A stretch of DNA of 29,714 nucleotides from a virus, in IMG/VR virus record IMGVR_UViG_3300031749_000028, positions 1 to 29,714 of that record; one strand, written 5' to 3'. The stretch's first letter is position 1, and every line of letters begins with the position of its first letter. Positions 12,550 to 22,029 of the stretch are shown one piece after another. The notes under the pieces are model-generated. The model saw only the letters and a program-made list of their open reading frames with translations, searched no databases and was not told where the DNA came from. The position numbers and the translations under genes were made by a program.

Positions 12550-12824
12550 TTAACTGGGGACCTTTAATAGGTTCGTCCGAGGAAATAGAGGCTTTGCCAG
12601 ATGACCATCCGTTAAAAAATGAGCCGGAGCCGAGAATAGAGGAGCTAATGCTAATCAAATTGGCAATGCCGCTGATATCAGATATGGGAATTAACTCCGG
12701 GATGCTAAAAGAGTTTATCGACCAGGCCGGAGAAACTTTGGCGGAAAAAATAATCATATTGGAGAAACTGAATATTATGCGCCAGACAATCGAAAAAATG
12801 GCGGCTGAAAAAATGAGGGCATAA
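12516..12824 (+). CDS. Tail assembly chaperone, frameshifted extension (lambda T-like part of GT)
   Basis: This is the -1 frame half of the chaperone pair, read as a fusion with residues 1-111 of the upstream gene to give about 213 residues. It adds 102 residues. It begins LEEFKRTLSLLINWGPLIGS and ends in a helical segment. No start codon with an SD lies near its beginning (first ATG 12594, no clear SD), which supports expression by frameshift only. TAA and ATG of the tape measure gene overlap as TAATG. In lambda the T part binds the tape measure and recruits tube subunits. Confidence 0.82.
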   Translation, partial: LEEFKRTLSLLINWGPLIGSSEEIEALPDDHPLKNEPEPRIEELMLIKLAMPLISDMGINSGMLKEFIDQAGETLAEKIIILEKLNIMRQTIEKMAAEKMRA

Positions 12825-15016
12825 TGGCTGATATCAAATATATCGTCGAGGTTGATACAAAAACAGCACAGGCTTCGATTAAGGAATTTAACGGCGAAAT
12901 TCAAAAAAGCGCCGAATCATTAAAATCAGCCGGTGAAACAGCGACAGAATCTGGTAGCAAATTTAGCGGACTGTGGAAGCAGATTGCTGGGGGAATTCTG
13001 GCTGTTGAGGCTCTTAGAAAAGGATTCCACGAGCTAACTCAATTTGTGGGGGATAGCATTAAGGAGGCGGCTGAAGCGGAAAGAGCGAATCGTTCGCTTG
13101 AAGCGGCGCTCGCTACGACCGGAAGAACAGTTGAGCCCTTAAAAAATCACTTTATTGCTCTCGCCGAAGCAATTCAAAAGGAAACGATATATAATGATGA
13201 TGCGGTAAAAGGCGCCACAACGCTCTTACTTCAATTAACCAACCTTGACCGCCAGGGGATAGAAGCGGCTACAAAAGGAGCGGTTGGCCTCGCCTCTACC
13301 CTTAAAATGGACCTCCAAACGGCGGCTTTGCTTGTGGCCAAGGCGATGGAAGGGAATACAGGGGCGCTAACTCGATATGGCATTAGAGTTTCCGAAAATT
13401 TGCCTCTTGAAGAAAAAAGGCGTCAATTTCTCGAGCAATTATTGGCTCTATATGAGCGAGCCAAAACAGAAACAGAAACCTTTTCTGGCGCTCAAATGCA
13501 ACTAAAAAACTCTTTTGATGATTTGAAAAAAACGATAGGTGAAAACATAATCAAAAATGAAACCTTAAGAAATGCTATAAAAGATTTGAAAGAGTGGGTC
13601 GATAAACTTGCTGAATCTGAGAATTTCAAACTCTGGCTTAGCGCTCTAATTGAGTTGCTCGAAAAGATGACCACAACAGTAGGAAAAGTTACAAGCGCAG
13701 TGGCTAAATTTGGGGAAACAGTAGGAACGTGGATAGCAACTAAAGGAAGAGCTAAAAAAGCCAATGAGGAATATGCCGAATCCTTCATAATTCTTCGGGA
13801 GGCGATTGAGAGAGCAAGAGCGGCTGGACATGACCATGTGGACCGACTGGAAAGGATTAAAGAGGCTTATGAAAAATCGAAACCTGCGATAAATGAAACG
13901 GGGCGAGCTATTGAGAAAATAACCGAAGCGGTTAAAGAAAAAGTAAAAATTACACAGACGGCTATTCCTTTGTGGAATCAATATGCCAGTGTAATGAAAA
14001 ATTGGAGAGTACTCGTAGAAGGCGAGGTGTTGCCAGCAGCAAGAAATCTAAAAGACCTTATTGACCACACCATAACACCTCAGCAGTTATATTATTGGCA
14101 GGACCATTTTGAGCAATATGTGCCTCCAGTTCAAAAAACGACTTCTGAGATTAAAAATTATTTTGATGGCCTTTTCAATGATATTGCCACTGGGTTAGGA
14201 AATCTTATTCAAAAATGGCTTGAGGGCGGCTTAACTTTGAAGAATTTTATGAAGGGAATTTGGGAAAAAATTAAGCAAGCCTTTTTCCGGATGCTTGGAG
14301 AAATGATTGCCACCGAGCTAATCAAAAAGCTCAAGGATGTTCTTTCATCTGCCCTTGATATCGGAAAATCTTTATCATCGGCGGTTTCATCGGCCGCTCA
14401 TGCGGCCACGTCCGTTGCTTCAAGCGTAAGTTCTTCTATCGCCGCCTTCAGCTCGTTATCGATGGCCCTGGGCGGCCTTGGTGGAATTGCGAATTTTGCC
14501 GCTTCAATTTTTAATTGGCTTAAAGGGCCTGAAAAGCATACCGACGTTACCTTTTGGCTTAAACTTATCAAAGATAATTCTCAAATCGTCGTTAATTATC
14601 TTTCAGCCGATTATCTTAATTTGACCAAGGGCATATTCGAAAAACTTGAGGCAATTAATGATGAGGCCTTGAGCTATCAAAATCGATTGCTTGAAGATAT
14701 ATCAGGTTTTGCTGCTGAAATAAGGGAGGCGGCTTATGGCGTTTGGGGTGTGCTGAAGGGGACAAAGAAAGCTCAATTTGGATTCGAGGGCATTGTTACC
14801 AGGCCGACGCTTTTTATGGCAGGTGAAGCGGGGCCGGAACGGGTTGTTATCCAGCCGATACAGGGTGGAAATCAGGTTTCCCAGAGCTTTGTCTTCAATA
14901 TATATGCTTCTGAAACAAATATTGTTGAAGTGATAAAAAAGAAAATCGTGCCAGAGCTGAGCCGCCTGATGCGCTCTGAAGCCTTTTTGGTTCATCCTAA
15001 GTCAGTGAGGGCTTAA
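12824..15016 (+). CDS. Tail tape measure protein
   Basis: Predicted product of 730 residues, the longest helical tail protein here. The N-terminus (MADIKYIVEVDTKTAQASIK) and the following helical segment with MEGNTGALTRYGI are typical of tape measure proteins. Its middle is rich in Lys, Glu and Ala. A hydrophobic Ala/Ser-rich stretch at about residues 510-560 may be a membrane-interacting segment. The end carries FGFEGIVTRPTLFMAGEAGPERVVI, a frequent tape-measure C-terminal motif. By the usual rule of about 1.5 angstrom per residue, the tail would be on the order of 100 nm. Confidence 0.92.
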   Translation: MADIKYIVEVDTKTAQASIKEFNGEIQKSAESLKSAGETATESGSKFSGLWKQIAGGILAVEALRKGFHELTQFVGDSIKEAAEAERANRSLEAALATTGRTVEPLKNHFIALAEAIQKETIYNDDAVKGATTLLLQLTNLDRQGIEAATKGAVGLASTLKMDLQTAALLVAKAMEGNTGALTRYGIRVSENLPLEEKRRQFLEQLLALYERAKTETETFSGAQMQLKNSFDDLKKTIGENIIKNETLRNAIKDLKEWVDKLAESENFKLWLSALIELLEKMTTTVGKVTSAVAKFGETVGTWIATKGRAKKANEEYAESFIILREAIERARAAGHDHVDRLERIKEAYEKSKPAINETGRAIEKITEAVKEKVKITQTAIPLWNQYASVMKNWRVLVEGEVLPAARNLKDLIDHTITPQQLYYWQDHFEQYVPPVQKTTSEIKNYFDGLFNDIATGLGNLIQKWLEGGLTLKNFMKGIWEKIKQAFFRMLGEMIATELIKKLKDVLSSALDIGKSLSSAVSSAAHAATSVASSVSSSIAAFSSLSMALGGLGGIANFAASIFNWLKGPEKHTDVTFWLKLIKDNSQIVVNYLSADYLNLTKGIFEKLEAINDEALSYQNRLLEDISGFAAEIREAAYGVWGVLKGTKKAQFGFEGIVTRPTLFMAGEAGPERVVIQPIQGGNQVSQSFVFNIYASETNIVEVIKKKIVPELSRLMRSEAFLVHPKSVRA

Positions 15017-15017
15017 A

Positions 15018-15761
15018 ATGGCATGCCGATTTCTTTATACGAACATTTGGGATGTGGGAACAATTACCGCAGCCACCGAAGCTTCAGGCTATCCCGGGTC
15101 TAATACCCAGCATCGATGGCATCTAAAGAGTTGGCGGTCAATGACAATAACTCAGGACCAATGGGTTAAATCAACGCTTGACTCTCAAAAATCGGCCCAA
15201 GCGGTAGTCATTTTTGCGAATAATTTAGATTTAATAAGTTCAGATAAAAAATTATATTTCCAAGGGAGTAATGATAACTTCTCTTCAGTTCCGCTTAATT
15301 TAGCCTGGCAGTCTCCATCATATTGTCAGGTTCAATTTTTTAATCAGCAAAGCTATCAATATTATAGGGTATATATTTTGGCCAATAGCTCAAGACAATC
15401 ATTTTTTAGCATTGGTAGAATATTTTGTGGCACTTATTTTGAGCCTCAAAGATATTTTGCTGACCGCAGTATAAAACTTATCGACCCGAGCCCAATTCAT
15501 TATTCAGAGTCAGGGCAGATTGTTACGTTGCTAAAAACAAAATACCGAGAGATGACTTATACTTTTTTTGTTAATGATAGTGATAAGGCCGGGTTTGAAT
15601 TATTATATCAAAAGGTCGGTAACTGGAAAGAATTTTTCTTCTGTGAAGATACATCTAACCCCAATAACACAACCTATTATGTGCGAATTGCTGGTTTTTC
15701 GATGCGCCAGATTCATAAAAATTATTGGGAAATTCAAATTACGCTTGAGCAACTGAGATGA
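15018..15761 (+). CDS. Distal tail (Dit-like) protein
   Basis: Predicted product of 247 residues directly after the tape measure, where the distal tail hub protein lies. The N-terminal ~150 residues look like a beta-sandwich of the galactose-binding/discoidin type, with SDKKLYFQGSNDNFSS and YYRVYILANSS. The C-terminal part (TLLKTKYREMTYTFFVN, then YYVRIAGFSMRQIHKNYWEIQITLEQL) resembles the strand-rich belt domain of Dit proteins. It would form the ring joining tube and tip; the sandwich may bind host glycans. It overlaps the hub gene by ATGA. Confidence 0.72.
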   Translation: MACRFLYTNIWDVGTITAATEASGYPGSNTQHRWHLKSWRSMTITQDQWVKSTLDSQKSAQAVVIFANNLDLISSDKKLYFQGSNDNFSSVPLNLAWQSPSYCQVQFFNQQSYQYYRVYILANSSRQSFFSIGRIFCGTYFEPQRYFADRSIKLIDPSPIHYSESGQIVTLLKTKYREMTYTFFVNDSDKAGFELLYQKVGNWKEFFFCEDTSNPNNTTYYVRIAGFSMRQIHKNYWEIQITLEQLR

Positions 15762-17983
15762 CCTGGAATGTAGATGTCGACCGGCTTATTATTGCCGAGC
15801 TTTATCTTGCCGAGGAAATTAATCTAAGACCCTGGGTGCAGACAGCCGGTCAAATATATACTTTTCAAACGGCAATTTCTGACCTCAACTTTTCAGAAAT
15901 AAGCTCGATTCGTGAAATCAAGGAGAATGGGTCTTCTTATGCGGCCAAATCTTCAATCGCTGAGGTTGAAGCCACGGCTTCATCCTATTACGTCGATTAT
16001 AATAACAAACAATTATATGTTCATACCTCAACCGGTGAATCGCCATCGACGCAGGTTTCGAGCGAATATAAATTTTGCATTCTCATGTTTTTCTGGATGG
16101 GCCTCGCTTCAGGCTTACGGGAGGATGGGGAATCAGCTTTCCCGATTCAGGGAAATTCAAGCAATGTTTTTTATCAACCAATAATTAAAGAGCCGCCCGA
16201 ACTAACGCTTGCTGTAGGCGAATATCACTCGGGGGCAATGCGAGCAGATATGGGTGAGCTTAAGCTCGTCCCTTCTCAATGGCTTCTTTTGGCCCTTAAA
16301 AAATGGATTTTCGAAGGGAAAGAAATAATTGTTAAGGTGGCGAAACCCGGAGATTCTTATTCTTCACTCCAGATCGTTTCGAGAGGCTATATAAAAAACA
16401 TATCAAAAAAAGAGGATGGAATTTCACTGGAAATTGAAGATAGGCGAAATATAGAGCTTGGAGATATTCCGCCCCAAACCTTTTCTCTCTTAACTTATCC
16501 GAATATGGAGGCCCGCTATGACGGCCAGCCAATTCCGATTCCATTTGGACAGGTTGAAAATATCATCCCGATTTTAATCAATTCTTCAACCAGGCGGTAT
16601 AAGGTTTCGCCTTATGCTATTGATTCGTTTCTTTGGGTCAAAAAGGACGGGAATCTATTAACACCAGAGGTTGATTATACGGCATATCCTGATTCCGGAG
16701 AATTTACCTTGGCAGCCGACCCCGGAAACTCCCTTATTACATGCGGAGTCAAAGGTATAAAGATTTCTTATTTTGGTGGGACCGCGGCCTTTTCGGAAAA
16801 TGTGGCAAATGTTTTATATTTCATTTTGACTACGCTTTGCGGGATTGATTCATCTAATCTTGACCAGTCTTCTTTTAATGCCCTTCAATCGGCCCGAACC
16901 CAACAATTATCGTGGTGGTTTGCTCCATCTCAAAAACAACCGGCCACCGAGGCAATAAGGCGAATGATGGCAACATTTCTTTTTCATCTCGTTGCCAGGC
17001 CGGATGGGAAATATTATGTCAAATATTTCGAGCCGGGGGAAACCGGATCCACCGAATTTAAAACAGAAGATATAATTAAATTGGACGATTTCAGGGAAGA
17101 TTATGATTCAATTTATTCTTCCGTTGTCATTCTTTACGATTTCAACCCCCAGACCGGTGAATGGAAAAGAATAGAAAAATCAGACCCAAAAACTGAATAT
17201 CGATATAAAAAGAAAAACAGCCTGGTCATAGAGAGCTTGTTGCGAGATTCGGCAGAGGCCGAAGCCCTGGCTGAAAAATATCTGAAAATGTACCGCAATC
17301 CCGTTCGCAGATTAAATTTATCACTTCAGCCACTGGCCTATGACCTGAAGCCGGCGGATAAAATCAAAATATCAAAGTTGATTTATCCAGAAGGAACGCC
17401 TCTATATCTTCTGGAGAATGCTGTGTATATAATTTTAGAATCGAGAATAAATTTCGCCAATCCTTTTGCCGAAATTCAAGCCATTGATTTAAGCCAGGCG
17501 GCGGGCGCCGTTCATTCCGATGTCGTCCATAAAGACTCGCACGGGGATTCGCATTCCGATGTGGCTCATGGAGATGTGGCTCATGGAGATGAAACTTATA
17601 ACGATTATAATGATACACCTCATTCCGATTCGCATTCCGATTCGCATTCAGACCAAGCTCATCAAGATATTCCCCACGAAGATTCCCATGAGGATTCGGC
17701 TCATTTAGACTATACGCACAGTGACCACGACGATCATTATGATGACCCTCTATATGACGATTGGAACGATTATGTCCATGATGATGTGGCCCATACAGAC
17801 TCATATGCCGACAGCCATACAGATTCGCCCCACCTGGATTCACATGAAGATTCATATTCCGACGTTGCCCATGAAGATGTCTCCCATACAGATTATTCAG
17901 ATTCGCCCCATTCAGATACGTCCCATGAAGATTCTCATTCTGATTCTCATTCTGATACTCCGCATATTGACTCGTGGTATTGA
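15758..17983 (+). CDS. Tail tip/hub protein with C-terminal aromatic-x-Asp repeat domain
   Basis: Predicted product of 741 residues. Residues 1 to about 580 look like a baseplate hub/tail-associated protein: beta-rich, with an ALAEKYLKMYRNPVRRLNLSLQPLAYDLKPADKI-type segment (quoted in part) common in hub domains, and located after Dit. Residues 586-741 are entirely different. About 35 copies of [H/Y/W]-x-D are spaced 4 or 5 residues apart, typically HSDS, HEDS or HGDVA, with no Cys and only one Lys, ending HIDSWY. This domain is strongly acidic and His-rich. The radical SAM gene begins 10 bases after the stop, so the domain is its obvious candidate substrate; metal binding is an alternative role. 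Confidence 0.85.
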   Translation: MTWNVDVDRLIIAELYLAEEINLRPWVQTAGQIYTFQTAISDLNFSEISSIREIKENGSSYAAKSSIAEVEATASSYYVDYNNKQLYVHTSTGESPSTQVSSEYKFCILMFFWMGLASGLREDGESAFPIQGNSSNVFYQPIIKEPPELTLAVGEYHSGAMRADMGELKLVPSQWLLLALKKWIFEGKEIIVKVAKPGDSYSSLQIVSRGYIKNISKKEDGISLEIEDRRNIELGDIPPQTFSLLTYPNMEARYDGQPIPIPFGQVENIIPILINSSTRRYKVSPYAIDSFLWVKKDGNLLTPEVDYTAYPDSGEFTLAADPGNSLITCGVKGIKISYFGGTAAFSENVANVLYFILTTLCGIDSSNLDQSSFNALQSARTQQLSWWFAPSQKQPATEAIRRMMATFLFHLVARPDGKYYVKYFEPGETGSTEFKTEDIIKLDDFREDYDSIYSSVVILYDFNPQTGEWKRIEKSDPKTEYRYKKKNSLVIESLLRDSAEAEALAEKYLKMYRNPVRRLNLSLQPLAYDLKPADKIKISKLIYPEGTPLYLLENAVYIILESRINFANPFAEIQAIDLSQAAGAVHSDVVHKDSHGDSHSDVAHGDVAHGDETYNDYNDTPHSDSHSDSHSDQAHQDIPHEDSHEDSAHLDYTHSDHDDHYDDPLYDDWNDYVHDDVAHTDSYADSHTDSPHLDSHEDSYSDVAHEDVSHTDYSDSPHSDTSHEDSHSDSHSDTPHIDSWY
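17513..17980 (+). repeat. Coding repeat array for aromatic-x-Asp units
   Basis: About 468 bases encode the [HYW]-x-D repeats. At the DNA level the units are variants of CAT-NNN-GAT/GAC-(TCG/GTG), with short perfect duplications. For example, GATGTGGCTCATGGA is repeated in tandem near 17559-17589, and CATTCCGATTCG recurs at 17631-17648. Units alternate between 12 and 15 bases, so the array can grow or shrink by slippage without losing frame. The spread of third-base differences indicates that most units are old rather than freshly copied. Confidence 0.9.
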
Positions 17984-17992
17984 GGAGATGGC

Positions 17993-19144
17993 ATGATTAG
18001 CATTAAGCCAATCGAGTGTAATGGATATTGTGCCTCATGTTATGAGGCGAAAATTAGGGAAACTGGATTTTACCCACGATTTGATTTTTGTGCGCTGAAA
18101 GAAGCTCTAAAGAAATTAATTGAACAGTTAAAACCAGATTCAGAGGTTCCGTGTCTTCACGGTGGCGAGCCCTTATTAATTCCCAAAAATCAGCTTGAGG
18201 AGCTTCTGCGGATTGTATATCAAAGGTTCGGCCGAACCTCAATTCAGACCAATGGATTATTGATAGATGATGACCATATAGAGCTTTTCAAGAAGTATAA
18301 AACGGCGGTCGGAATTAGTCTTGATGGGGACACGCCTGAGCTTAATTATGGTCGGTTAAACGCTCTGAATTTATCGCCTGAGAAAAGAATTGAATTAACC
18401 TTAAGGGTTATAAAAAATATAGCGAAATTGAGGGATGCTAACGTTAACATTTCAATTATCTGCTTATTGCGAAGGTATAATGCCTTGCCCGATAAAATTC
18501 CCGAATTGCTACGATTTTTATTTAGATTAAGAGATGAATTTGGCATTTTCTCGGTCAGGCTAAATGAAGCTATTGTATATGATGAAAAATTGCGCCCTCA
18601 AGAGGAGCTGACGGGTAAGGAATTAGGCCAGGCCTGGATTGTTATATATGAGGCAATGAAAACGGATTGCCGGTTTGATTGGAGGCCGCCGCTTGATTTT
18701 GTAAATAAGCTGTTGGGAAAACCGGCTGTATGCGTCCTGAATCAATGCGATGTCTGGTCAACTGCGGCTGAGGTCTGTATTATAGGGGATGGCTCATTGG
18801 GTTGCTGTCTTCACGGCGGGGCGGCGATTGATGGGATTCAAGCCCTAAGAGCCGAAAAATCCGGGGTTGAAAGATATGAGATTTTGCCTCAAATTCCCCA
18901 GGATGAAGGTGGTTGTCAAGGCTGCCATTTTTGGCTCTATTGTTATGGCGGGTGTCCCGGGGCTGGAATCGATAACGACTGGCGAAATAAGACAAGGTTT
19001 TGCGAAGGCTATAAGATGCTATATGAGCATATATTAAGCGACTCGATTTTTAGGCTCAAGATGATTGAGGGCAAGGCCGAATCAATACAGACCGGCCATC
19101 AAGATTGGCATGGAGACAGACCTCATGGAGACCATAGCGATTAA
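17993..19144 (+). CDS. Radical SAM/SPASM peptide maturase with His-x-Asp tail
   Basis: Predicted product of 383 residues; ATG 17993 follows AGGAG. The radical SAM [4Fe-4S] motif C9-x3-C13-x2-C16 is at the N-terminus, with the SAM-binding G57-G58-E59 (LHGGEPLL) and ISLDGDTPELNYGR. The C-terminal SPASM-type auxiliary-cluster region has C308, C311, C317, C321 and C337 (GCQGCHFWLYCYGGCP...FCEGYK), plus earlier candidate ligands in CVLNQC and GCCLHGG. SPASM proteins mostly modify ribosomal peptides or proteins. The last 16 residues (368-383) are GHQDWHGDRPHGDHSD, the same repeat type as in the hub protein just upstream. The reaction is not known; cross-linking or epimerisation of the hub repeats is inferred. 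Confidence 0.92.
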   Translation: MISIKPIECNGYCASCYEAKIRETGFYPRFDFCALKEALKKLIEQLKPDSEVPCLHGGEPLLIPKNQLEELLRIVYQRFGRTSIQTNGLLIDDDHIELFKKYKTAVGISLDGDTPELNYGRLNALNLSPEKRIELTLRVIKNIAKLRDANVNISIICLLRRYNALPDKIPELLRFLFRLRDEFGIFSVRLNEAIVYDEKLRPQEELTGKELGQAWIVIYEAMKTDCRFDWRPPLDFVNKLLGKPAVCVLNQCDVWSTAAEVCIIGDGSLGCCLHGGAAIDGIQALRAEKSGVERYEILPQIPQDEGGCQGCHFWLYCYGGCPGAGIDNDWRNKTRFCEGYKMLYEHILSDSIFRLKMIEGKAESIQTGHQDWHGDRPHGDHSD

Positions 19145-19973
19145 AGTCGGAAATTATTATCGGATTGTTTGGCTATCCCAAAAGGCCAAAAATGCCTGGG
19201 CGGGCGTATTAGCAGATTTGAGCCGAGATATTTTTGCGCTTGAAATAGAAACAGTCAAACGAGGACTTAGGCCGGCAAGCTGGCAAACCGTCGATGAAAA
19301 ACAATATCTGGGTCTGGCCAGGGCCTGGGTTGATGATGGGCTTGTTTCGCTTCCGGTCAGATATTCCCGGAAATGCGACGGCTTTGCTCATTATCATGAA
19401 GAGCCGAAATTGGGGGAGGCTAAGAATATATCAGTCATAATTAGCAAGGACATTGCCATAGCCAGAGAATTTGTCGGAGCATATGAACGGGGAGACCATG
19501 ATACACAAGGGAAACTTCTTGGCTATCCCGAATGCTGTCGCAAGGCCTTTGCCGAAAGATGGCAGGCCGGATATTTTGACCCAATATGGCAGGCGGCAGA
19601 AGCGACACCAGCGGAGCGAGTAATGAAAAAATCAGAAACCAAAATATGGCTTGTTCCCCATGCTTTCTCAAATCCGATATTACGTTATGCCGGGATTCGG
19701 GTCTCATTTCATATTCCCTGCTCCTTTGCCTGTGAGAACTCAATAGAGATGGCTCAAAAATATTTTGATATTTACCGCCTGATTTCTCCTAATTATCCCT
19801 TAATGGAAGCTCTGTTGAGAATGCCGGTAAGCTGGGATTGCTATCACGGATTAGCGGTAATAAAAACACCAATATTTTATCTCATCATTGGTTCTGTTCC
19901 CGCAAAGAAAAAATATATCGTGGAATGCGATGGCGATTTTATTCCAAAAGAGGGGATAAAATGTTTCTCTTAA
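19125..19973 (+). CDS. LGYPxCC/HxPCxxxC protein, candidate partner of the radical SAM enzyme
   Basis: Predicted product of 282 residues from ATG 19125; GGAG at 19112-19115 lies nine bases upstream, inside the codons for the HGD repeats of the radical SAM tail. ATG 19110 is an in-frame alternative. Two motifs stand out: LGYPECCRKAF (132-142) and SFHIPCSFAC (H196, C199, C203). Together the four Cys and His could hold a metal or Fe-S cluster. The LGYPxCC...HxPCs combination resembles DUF483-like proteins of unknown function, from memory. The 20-base overlap with the radical SAM gene implies coupled synthesis and a shared task. Confidence 0.8.
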   Translation: METIAIKVGNYYRIVWLSQKAKNAWAGVLADLSRDIFALEIETVKRGLRPASWQTVDEKQYLGLARAWVDDGLVSLPVRYSRKCDGFAHYHEEPKLGEAKNISVIISKDIAIAREFVGAYERGDHDTQGKLLGYPECCRKAFAERWQAGYFDPIWQAAEATPAERVMKKSETKIWLVPHAFSNPILRYAGIRVSFHIPCSFACENSIEMAQKYFDIYRLISPNYPLMEALLRMPVSWDCYHGLAVIKTPIFYLIIGSVPAKKKYIVECDGDFIPKEGIKCFS

Positions 19974-20452
19974 AAGCCGATTTTGAAAAAGAAATTAAAA
20001 GAATTAACAGCTTGCTTAACCGTATATTAAGGAGCCATGAGGCTAAGGTTAGGGCCTATCTCGGTTCAAGCCAATTAAATATTCCCAATGCTACCTGGAC
20101 AAGGATTAAATTAAATACTGTATTTTACGATACCAAAGGCGGCTTTGATACCGCTAATAATTATTATGTCATTCCGGTTTCTGGTTTTTACCTTGCTGTT
20201 GCCCGTGTAACATGGGCTAATATCCAGGCGGGACGATATATTGTTTCTATTAATGATGGTTCAGATAGAACTATTCATGAAGACCAACTTTCGACAGTGA
20301 ATAATTATATAGCCTTTAGCTTTTCAGACATTCTTTTTTTGAACAAAGGGAGCAATGTGGCCTTATATGCATATCAAAATACAGGGGGAAATACCCCGGG
20401 GATCCTTGCGGGAATAGCAAGAACTTTTTTGGCTTTATTATTAATTGAATGA
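19961..20452 (+). CDS. C1q/TNF-like tail fibre or receptor-binding protein
   Basis: Predicted product of 163 residues from ATG 19961, after AGGGG, overlapping the previous stop by 13 bases. Residues 1 to about 30 are a helical coil (FEKEIKRINSLLNRILRS), fit for trimerisation. The rest is a jelly-roll with C1q-like features: TWTRIKLNTVFYDTKGGFD, YYVIPVSGFYLAVARVTW, GRYIVSIND, IAFSFSDILFLNKGSNVALYAYQN and a hydrophobic end. C1q-like trimers serve as receptor-binding heads in many phages. Position after the tail tip fits this. Direct receptor data cannot be had from the sequence. Confidence 0.75.
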   Translation: MFLLKADFEKEIKRINSLLNRILRSHEAKVRAYLGSSQLNIPNATWTRIKLNTVFYDTKGGFDTANNYYVIPVSGFYLAVARVTWANIQAGRYIVSINDGSDRTIHEDQLSTVNNYIAFSFSDILFLNKGSNVALYAYQNTGGNTPGILAGIARTFLALLLIE

Positions 20453-20623: not shown

Positions 20624-20779
20624 TTGGCGGAAAACATAATCAAACAAGCTCAGGATGAATATTTTAGAACACTCACTTTAGTGATGAAAGAATTGGGAAT
20701 ACCAGAGGAAGAATTTTCCCAATGGAAGCTGGAGGAAGATAAATTTGTTAAGCAAGAATTGGAAAAAGAACAAAAATGA
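20624..20779 (+). CDS. Small acidic helical protein, start uncertain
   Basis: The frame is open from a stop at 20591 to TGA 20777-20779, which overlaps the next ATG as ATGA, arguing for translational coupling. From TTG 20624 it gives 51 residues, highly charged and helical, ending EEDKFVKQELEKEQK. CTG 20594, preceded by AGGA at 20579-20582, or ATG 20684 are alternative starts. No family is recognised. It was probably missed by standard gene finders because it lacks an early ATG. Confidence 0.45.
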   Translation: MAENIIKQAQDEYFRTLTLVMKELGIPEEEFSQWKLEEDKFVKQELEKEQK

Positions 20780-22029
20780 ATATCCGGAAATGGCTCTGTA
20801 AAATATTCAAAAGTAGGCTGATTGCGAGCTTGCTTAACTGCGACCGATATAAACCAAAACCTCCAAAACCACCAGAACCGCCAGAGCCAAAGCCAATAAA
20901 AATCAAGGTTCAAGTCTGTAAGGAATCGGGCCTAATTCCTAACCCTTATTGTCCTGAAGTGATTGAAGAGGAGTTTGAGATTGGAGATGAGCCGCGAGAG
21001 GTATGCTCAATTCATCATGCACCAGAGCCAAAGTTTAAGCGCTATGTTTTTGCCGCTGATATCATGACTGCTGAGGGTGATTGGAAAAATTTTCTTCGGC
21101 AATGCGCTGAGGCTAAAGCTGATGGTATAAGGATGTTCGCTGTGTATGGGTGGTTTGGAAATGTTTCAAGCCCCTGGAAACAGATTGGCACCTGGCATGC
21201 GGATTATGACGACGCCCCAGAATTGCCCTTTTATGACCTGCGGCAATATGATGAAAAATGGTGGCAAAAATTCAGAGAAATTCTTTGCTATTGCCGGGGC
21301 CTTAGTCTTGAGGTTATTATTTCTCTCGATGATTTTTGCTCATTAAAATTAGACGGATGGGAAAAATATTGGCATCCGGTTTTATCATCAGCCCCGGACA
21401 GAGATATGAAAAATCCAGGTGTTAACCGTTTTCCTAATGGCTATTGGGGGATAGGTGATAATACGATTGAACCGTTTCTGAAAATATATAGAAAAGATAT
21501 AATTTCGGAAATACAAAAAACTGGCGTCAAATATTGGATTGAGACGATGAATGAATATGATGCTCTCGATTGGCCTGATGATTATATGATTATGTGGCAT
21601 GATAGAGTCGTTCGGGAGCTTATCGATTATGGTGTGCCAAGAGAGAGAATAATCGCCTCACCCGGGCGATGTTGGCAAAATATCGCTGGCCAGGTGGGAA
21701 TCCTTTCGATTCATTGCGTAGTGAAAGACTGGCAAGTGCCAGACCTGCCCTGGCCCCATGATAGGGTGATGATTTCGGGAGATGGGGGATATGATGGCTC
21801 TGGAAGAGCGAACCAAAAGGGCGGCCGGGGGCTGGGCCTCAAAGACGTCCCAGCGCTGGCAAAAAGGTTAAAAGAGCTCGGTTATTATGCCTATGAATAT
21901 ATGGACCAAGGGATGTATTTTAAGGATGACAATCGAGCTAACCTTGATGATTTTGACCCCGAGCCACTAATCGCCCTATATGAAAATTCCTTCCATCCTA
22001 CTGGAAGCGAAAGGAGAAAAAATGAATAA
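20776..22029 (+). CDS. Tail-associated TIM-barrel glycosidase-like protein with PBP-type C-x-SG module
   Basis: Predicted product of 417 residues. Residues 26-40 are a proline/lysine-rich linker. Residues 48-80 read C48-KESG-x-IPN-x-YCP...EIGDEP...C77-SIHH. This matches the small Cys-containing module found at the C-terminus of class A penicillin-binding proteins. From about residue 88 a (beta/alpha)8-barrel-like domain follows. WIETMNEY (N259-E260) looks like the clan GH-A acid/base Asn-Glu, and a late YAYEYMDQG could hold the nucleophile. It may degrade host capsule, exopolysaccharide or wall glycans at the tail tip. Substrate and activity are inferred. Confidence 0.72.
   Translation: MNIRKWLCKIFKSRLIASLLNCDRYKPKPPKPPEPPEPKPIKIKVQVCKESGLIPNPYCPEVIEEEFEIGDEPREVCSIHHAPEPKFKRYVFAADIMTAEGDWKNFLRQCAEAKADGIRMFAVYGWFGNVSSPWKQIGTWHADYDDAPELPFYDLRQYDEKWWQKFREILCYCRGLSLEVIISLDDFCSLKLDGWEKYWHPVLSSAPDRDMKNPGVNRFPNGYWGIGDNTIEPFLKIYRKDIISEIQKTGVKYWIETMNEYDALDWPDDYMIMWHDRVVRELIDYGVPRERIIASPGRCWQNIAGQVGILSIHCVVKDWQVPDLPWPHDRVMISGDGGYDGSGRANQKGGRGLGLKDVPALAKRLKELGYYAYEYMDQGMYFKDDNRANLDDFDPEPLIALYENSFHPTGSERRKNE

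Follow-up and report, generated by a model that had tools for sequence, protein, structure and literature searches.

Introduction

Three-residue cyclophane synthases, the enzymes of the triceptide systems, form a bond between an aromatic ring and the beta carbon of the residue two positions on (PMC11002830). The known i-to-i+2 bonds run from Tyr to the Cβ of Asp (YxdB), from Trp to the Cβ of Asn or Asp (OscB), and from Phe to the Cβ of Asn; further bonds of this span connect His to Ala (HaaB) and Tyr or His to Arg (YhhB) (PMC11002830). His-Xaa-Ser (Hxs) systems combine His-x-acceptor repeats with radical S-adenosylmethionine (SAM)/SPASM maturases. A module of a radical SAM enzyme, a DUF483 protein, and an unknown protein has been described in the phages Cumys and phiMa and in prophages. 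DNA modification was tentatively suggested as its role, on the basis that cyanobacterial homologues lie near deazapurine DNA-modification genes (Kolesnik et al. 2024, PMC11437467). Here, we analyzed a viral stretch of 29,714 bases from IMG/VR (record IMGVR_UViG_3300031749_000028, positions 1 to 29,714; the window), in which a tail protein ending in dense aromatic-x-Asp repeats is followed by a radical SAM/SPASM enzyme and a DUF483 protein. The comparisons suggest that these three genes form a protein-maturation cassette, for which the C-terminal repeat of the tail-tip protein would be the substrate.

The three-gene cassette and the described systems

The cassette comprises the following features.

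15758..17983, + strand: tail-tip/hub-like structural protein of 741 amino acids, the proposed substrate (assigned from synteny; profile match phrog_8917; N-terminal part 15758-17512)
17513..17980, + strand: C-terminal repeat domain of 35 [H/Y/W]-x-D units with linkers of 0-3 residues (pattern count against shuffles)
17982..17987, + strand: Shine-Dalgarno-like GAGGAG, read from the sequence; it overlaps the substrate stop codon and lies 5 nt before the ATG of the enzyme gene
17993..19144, + strand: radical SAM/SPASM enzyme of 383 amino acids, the proposed repeat maturase (Pfam Radical_SAM 5e-14, SPASM Cys set)
19097..19141, + strand: the enzyme's own C-terminal repeat tail, HQDWHGDRPHGDHSD, seen in the translation
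19110..19973, + strand: DUF483 protein (LGYPECC), starting at 19110 or 19125 in a frame open from 19065

The repeat domain forms the last 156 residues (586-741) of the 741-residue open reading frame (ORF). It contains one Lys and no Arg, so that trypsin would leave it in large fragments. A first-pass annotation, made from the letters of the DNA, had noticed about 35 [H/Y/W]-x-D repeats here, and counting returned exactly 35 non-overlapping units. Their first residue is His in 28, Tyr in 6, and Trp in 1, the third residue is Asp in every unit, and all 28 His residues of the domain have Asp at +2. The pattern [HYWF]xD occurs 36 times, compared with a mean of 9.9 and a maximum of 21 in 20,000 composition-preserving shuffles. 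The 585 residues before the domain contain only 2. Tandem arrays at the DNA level are short and partial (at most about 40 bp) and do not add up to a single array, and the codons for His, Asp, and Ser vary across the domain. Therefore, the repeat pattern is maintained at the protein level.

The same annotation had placed a radical SAM/SPASM enzyme directly after the repeat gene, and an LGYPxCC protein overlapping the enzyme gene. Both assignments held: the enzyme starts at 17993 with complete cluster and SPASM motifs, and the LGYPxCC protein belongs to Pfam DUF483 and starts inside the end of the enzyme gene. The CxxxCxxC cluster motif (C9xxxC13xxC16) is invariant in 34 relatives. The SPASM set is complete (C252-x14-G267-x4-C272...C308-x2-C311-x5-C317-x3-C321...C337), and its Cys residues are invariant across 28-34 relatives. 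Among the 34 relatives, the eight Cys residues from C247 onward do not vary, and G267 is kept in at least 90%. An AlphaFold model of the enzyme, with a predicted local distance difference test (pLDDT) score of 87, best matched the peptide-bound anaerobic sulfatase-maturating enzyme (anSME) and ChlB, an enzyme of ribosomally synthesized and post-translationally modified peptides. These two are the closest solved folds, at about 20% identity, and both act on peptides or proteins. anSME oxidizes Cys or Ser and has no substrate motif in common with the cassette.

The C-terminal tail of the enzyme, HQDWHGDRPHGDHSD, is a miniature of the substrate repeat that was overlooked in the earlier reading, and it is predicted to be disordered (pLDDT about 40). 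Similar tails were found on the enzyme in 67 of the 81 viral loci and on 5 of the 22 cellular enzymes; by chance, two units are reached in 22% of shuffled tails. Since the repeat tails are largely limited to the phage copies, the tail may serve in docking or co-assembly, or it may itself be modified.

Like the triceptide systems (XncB/XyeB, OscB/GrrM, MscB, FxsB, YxdB, HaaB, and YhhB), the cassette joins a radical SAM/SPASM enzyme to an aromatic-x-(D/N/other) target in a co-encoded substrate. The residue repertoire is also close to that of the triceptides, with His, Tyr, Phe, or Trp at position 1, and Asp or Asn, rarely Lys, at position 3. In contrast to the triceptides, the proposed substrate is a large phage structural protein (741 residues in the window) with 35 or more units, DUF483 is present as a partner, and the enzyme bears the motif. 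The window has no short precursor peptide of the triceptide kind, and short peptides occur only in some cellular members. In an NCBIfam scan, the window enzyme scored 41-64 bits with AmcB, FxsB, GrrM/OscB, and YhhB, and 38.9 bits with XyeB, against cutoffs of 310-450. A tree with few outgroup references and long branches gathered 72 DUF483-linked radical SAM enzymes, including that of the window, into one clade (support 99) that excludes two FxsB and four anSME rows; in this tree, they do not share a clade with the FxsB-type enzymes. The window enzyme is a bona fide SPASM radical SAM enzyme. By analogy, it appears to be triceptide-like in its working, and we do not class it as a member of the triceptide systems. 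The cassette also resembles the Hxs systems in its His-x-acceptor repeats. It differs from them in having a single radical SAM enzyme instead of the HxsB/HxsC pair, Asp or Asn in place of Ser, and a phage structural substrate, and HxsB was not among the best NCBIfam matches of the window enzyme.

Occurrence of the module and linkage of repeats and enzyme

A tblastn search found the radical SAM and DUF483 genes side by side in the Thermus phages Cumys, phiMa, and phiLo, with 31-41% identity to the window proteins. In Cumys and phiMa, which are laboratory phages of T. thermophilus HB8, a gene for an H-x-D-packed protein lies immediately upstream of the enzyme gene, after baseplate and tail-collar-fibre genes, and the enzyme ends in EHGDYTDHGDAPHGDHWDG. 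phiLo (L123:14804-19022) encodes three large aromatic-x-Asp repeat proteins on the opposite strand, about 4 kb from an enzyme that bears a longer repeat tail. The Cumys/phiMa module of the literature, with a homologous enzyme, DUF483 protein, and repeat protein in the order seen in the window, is the same module; the repeats in its third protein and on its enzyme were not reported there (PMC11437467). As read from the sequences, these repeats point to protein modification.

A single-sequence search of viral contigs with the window enzyme found no relative, and tblastn with the whole tail protein found no matches in phages. Alignment-based scans seeded from the Thermus phage sequences yielded, in IMG/VR, 40 radical SAM loci and 9 DUF483 loci; bacterial and archaeal genomes contained related loci. 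The module also occurs in dozens of IMG/VR phages, in bacteria, and in one archaeon. The enzyme and DUF483 genes are adjacent in 54 non-redundant loci, fused in 7, and otherwise arranged on the same strand in 10.

For an unbiased view, viral sequences were searched with a DNA pattern for four H-x-D units, which gave at least 120 loci. The 120 matches listed, to which the following counts refer, comprise 40 diverse (non-trivial) repeat proteins, 21 simple DNA tandem arrays, and 59 loci without a dense repeat ORF, the latter two classes serving as 80 controls. The radical SAM enzyme lies inside the often truncated locus in 33 of the 40 diverse-repeat cases and in none of the 80 controls (Fisher p = 5e-23, an indicative value, since related contigs were counted separately). 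Three more diverse-repeat loci have it elsewhere in the record (36/40). The first-pass annotation had proposed a search of phage genomes for co-occurrence of the repeats and the enzyme, and had named their routine separation as the outcome that would speak against its idea. We found them almost never apart.

Enzyme loci that at first seemed repeat-free (L135-L151, L179, L182, L183, L186, L187, L191-L194, and L204) proved to have variant, sparse, or single motifs. In the phages L135-L151, several ORFs in a row encode HxN and FxN repeats. In Fulvivirga marina (L187:6826-9966), a protein encoded next to an enzyme of this family has H-x-K rather than H-x-D repeats at its end, PHIKHIKAPHIK. An acidobacterium locus (L182) encodes a small His-x-Asp peptide, and a Plesiocystis protein (L186) ends in FVDIIPHIDYVDLGGY, a minimal form of the motif. 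In Bradyrhizobium, Tahibacter, and Lysobacterales (L191-L194 and L204), peptides of about 90 residues that end in a single HIDIL, HVDV, or HIDV lie upstream of the enzyme. The short fragments L128-L130, L132, L134, L138, L162, and L177 were assigned neither way, nor was L195, which has only a weak candidate ORF.

Selection on the repeat unit

Across 51 repeat regions with 1851 His residues, the residue at +2 of His is Asp in 88.6%, Asn in 8.7%, and Glu in 0.6%. Conversely, the residue at -2 of Asp is His in 79%, Tyr in 7.4%, Phe in 2.3%, and Trp in 1.7%. Linkers range from 0 to 12 residues without fixed geometry, and only one of about 2,070 middle residues is Pro. Comparison of related phages gave differences of 3.5% at position 1 and 1.0% at position 3, as opposed to 50% at the middle position and 41% in the linkers. 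Matches at His and at Asp might be favored by the alignment itself, a bias that is limited by the use of gap-free alignments. Positions 1 and 3 show frequent synonymous change. Of the changes at position 1, about half exchange one aromatic residue for another (H/F/Y/W), and Asp at position 3 exchanges with Asn, hardly with Glu. Because positions 1 and 3 are conserved while the middle and the linkers are free, the aromatic residue and Asp/Asn supply the functional atoms, and each three-residue unit is autonomous, with neither the overall fold nor the spacing conserved. Purifying selection thus acts on exactly the residues that a cross-linking enzyme would need.

Proposed chemistry and its alternatives

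Comparison of the loci shows that the association is conserved, that the SPASM architecture is complete, and that selection acts on exactly the first and third residues of the unit. The first-pass annotation had proposed that the enzyme cross-links or otherwise modifies each unit and so stiffens or metal-loads a virion spike. The substrate link in this claim is supported by the co-occurrence and by the selection on the two positions; the chemistry, from the occurrence of the modification and the bond type to the role of DUF483 and the effect on the virion, we infer. In all likelihood, the enzyme modifies the aromatic-x-Asp units in some way. With less assurance, we consider it probable that the enzyme and DUF483 install one i-to-i+2 cross-link per unit. 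One cross-link within the unit is favored because the residue preferences match those of the cyclophane synthases and contradict metal binding.

In the proposed mechanism, the radical SAM/SPASM enzyme, with DUF483 as an obligate partner, would act on every aromatic-x-Asp/Asn unit. A hydrogen would be removed from the beta carbon of Asp or Asn, and this carbon would be bonded to the aromatic ring two residues earlier. Each unit would gain one small ring and lose about 2 Da, amounting to about 70 Da for 35 units. The tail tip would thereby gain a constrained appendage, probably rigid and resistant to proteases. DUF483 would serve in substrate handling or as an auxiliary metal site.

Several points weigh against this proposal. 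The window enzyme falls below every NCBIfam cyclophane-synthase cutoff and lies in a clade of its own. Known triceptide precursors are short peptides, unlike the large structural protein here, and the described triceptide clusters have no DUF483 counterpart. A methyltransferase domain is present on some DUF483 proteins, which makes a second chemistry possible in other parts of the family. Fe-S enzymes are oxygen-sensitive, and activity during infection is therefore an assumption.

The alternative that survives best is that the enzyme and DUF483 modify the same units by another chemistry, to which all the evidence for the substrate link applies equally. Candidates are a dynobactin-like bond between a His nitrogen and the Asp Cβ, epimerization, Asp decarboxylation, or, for the versions with a methyltransferase domain, methylation. 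Dynobactin has a C-N bond of i/i+2 span from the Tyr Cβ to a His nitrogen, and among the NCBIfam matches of the window enzyme, the DynA profile ranks second. The methyltransferase domain on some DUF483 proteins also favors a different reaction. However, the Phe- and Trp-x-D/N units and the exchange of His for Phe, Tyr, or Trp are more easily reconciled with a general bond to an aromatic carbon than with one to His nitrogen, and epimerization does not need a fixed aromatic residue at i and Asp/Asn at i+2. We regard another chemistry as a tentative and rather unlikely option.

His and Asp are metal ligands, and some phage spikes bind iron. The repeats could accordingly form a metal-binding, for example iron-loaded, spike module, with the enzyme and DUF483 aiding metal insertion or being incidental; metal loading had also been a variant in the first-pass annotation. 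Under metal binding, Glu would be expected as a substitute and Phe or Asn would not, which is the opposite of what was observed: Phe, Tyr, and Trp replace His, and Asn takes the place of Asp far more often than Glu does. Furthermore, whole proteins are built on HxN/FxN or HxK, the linkers have no fixed geometry, and a full SPASM enzyme is conserved alongside. This explanation is therefore disfavored, and we hold it to be quite improbable.

Even less probable is the published suggestion that the module modifies DNA, which would make its adjacency to the repeat gene accidental. It draws on the cyanobacterial homologues near deazapurine DNA-modification genes (PMC11437467). The third gene of the Cumys/phiMa module, however, itself encodes an aromatic-x-Asp repeat protein, the enzymes bear the same repeat, the presence of the repeat predicts the enzyme, and no DNA-modification gene was found among the window ORFs scanned.

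A chance arrangement, in which a tail protein of biased composition happens to lie beside an unrelated metabolic radical SAM gene, has a negligible probability: His/Asp-rich simple repeats do arise (21 of the 61 dense-repeat viral loci among the matches listed are simple arrays without the enzyme), but chance as an account of the repeat-enzyme association is refuted by the co-occurrence data, and the motif-level purifying selection and the recurrence in unrelated phages and in cells also oppose it.

Returning to the cross-link proposal, we lean slightly toward a widespread and so far unrecognized maturation class. Its users would be phages, along with some bacteria and archaea, and a self-tagged radical SAM enzyme and DUF483 would put tens to about a hundred consecutive intramolecular aromatic-Asp/Asn cross-links into the tips of tail proteins, yielding a genetically encoded staple polymer as a virion part.

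The DUF483 protein

The DUF483 assignment rests on a PF04467 score of 28.6 bits, against a Pfam gathering cutoff of 25. E45, P140, C142, C143, D157, G195, and C208 are invariant among the relatives, and H201 is nearly so. The invariant Cys142, Cys143, Cys208, Asp157, and Glu45, with the near-invariant His201, suggest a metal site or a role in substrate handling. The predicted structure is confident (pLDDT 95). A PDB sequence search found no relative, and Foldseek of the model against the PDB gave no clear fold match, with E never below 0.14. In VIA, the highest-scoring match was 2guk (Z 9.7 across 103 residues), a protein with no assigned function.

Some DUF483 proteins of about 490 residues have a C-terminal methyltransferase domain (L046:10075-11541 and L191:11110-12564). 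This fusion is found in several phages and in Bradyrhizobium, and the window copy lacks the domain. From the fusion, some members of the family may carry out a second modification, for instance methylation.

Significance

Literature searches, which did not cover subscription journals, found no radical SAM-modified phage structural protein. The remark in the first-pass annotation that no such case had been described thus stands within the literature searched, although the radical SAM-DUF483 module itself was reported in 2024 (PMC11437467). Very probably, phages introduce cross-links or some other chemical change at many sites of their own tail proteins, a practice with no earlier description. 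If true, and within the literature searched, a phage structural protein would here be modified by a radical enzyme for the first time, with a run of such modifications far denser than on any other polypeptide. DUF483 would gain a role, and the suggestion of DNA modification by the Thermus phage module would be replaced. Tail-protein models built from the unmodified sequence would be wrong for these phages. The module would also be a source of enzymes for stapling repeat polypeptides, some of them thermophilic and from phages that can be cultured.

Aeromonas phage 332-Vera (PMC12390700) and the Campylobacter phages CP220/CPt10 (PMC2853527) are other phages with radical SAM genes, 8-12 in number. 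Those of 332-Vera lie within a structural cluster (PMC12390700). The genes of these phages, which are unrelated to the window enzyme, were ascribed to metabolism or left without a role (PMC2853527, PMC12390700); they may also modify structural proteins.

Genomic context and further observations

The window has a siphophage gene order, with terminase, portal, protease, major head protein, and tape measure genes. Two of its genes directly precede that of the 741-residue protein.

12824-15016: tape measure gene, upstream of the gene for the 741-residue protein
15018-15761: distal-tail-like gene, between the tape measure gene and the gene for the 741-residue protein

The first-pass annotation had called the 741-residue protein a tail hub. 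Its position after the tape measure and distal-tail-like genes fits this name, although its sole profile match is to a PHROG of unknown function (phrog_8917, E = 1e-28). The designation as a probable tail-tip/hub protein thus rests on synteny. The same hub-and-repeat architecture was found in L012, L064, and L176.

Just downstream of the cassette, 19838-20452 encodes a C1q-like protein, with a match below the cutoff, and may be a receptor-binding gene. The product of 20776-22029 looks glycosidase-like by sequence, without a Pfam or PHROG family match, and may be a depolymerase.

Among the cellular loci, those with a peptide of about 90 residues and an enzyme/DUF483 pair (L191, L193, L194, and L204) are a candidate new peptide natural-product cluster. 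At L191, two B12-binding-type radical SAM proteins are encoded near the peptide and the pair. In Nannocystis (L183:6587-9988), a beta/gamma-crystallin-repeat protein ending in HVDIPLPHVDHVDVPVIGHIDDY adjoins a fused radical SAM-DUF483 protein, a non-phage use of the module.

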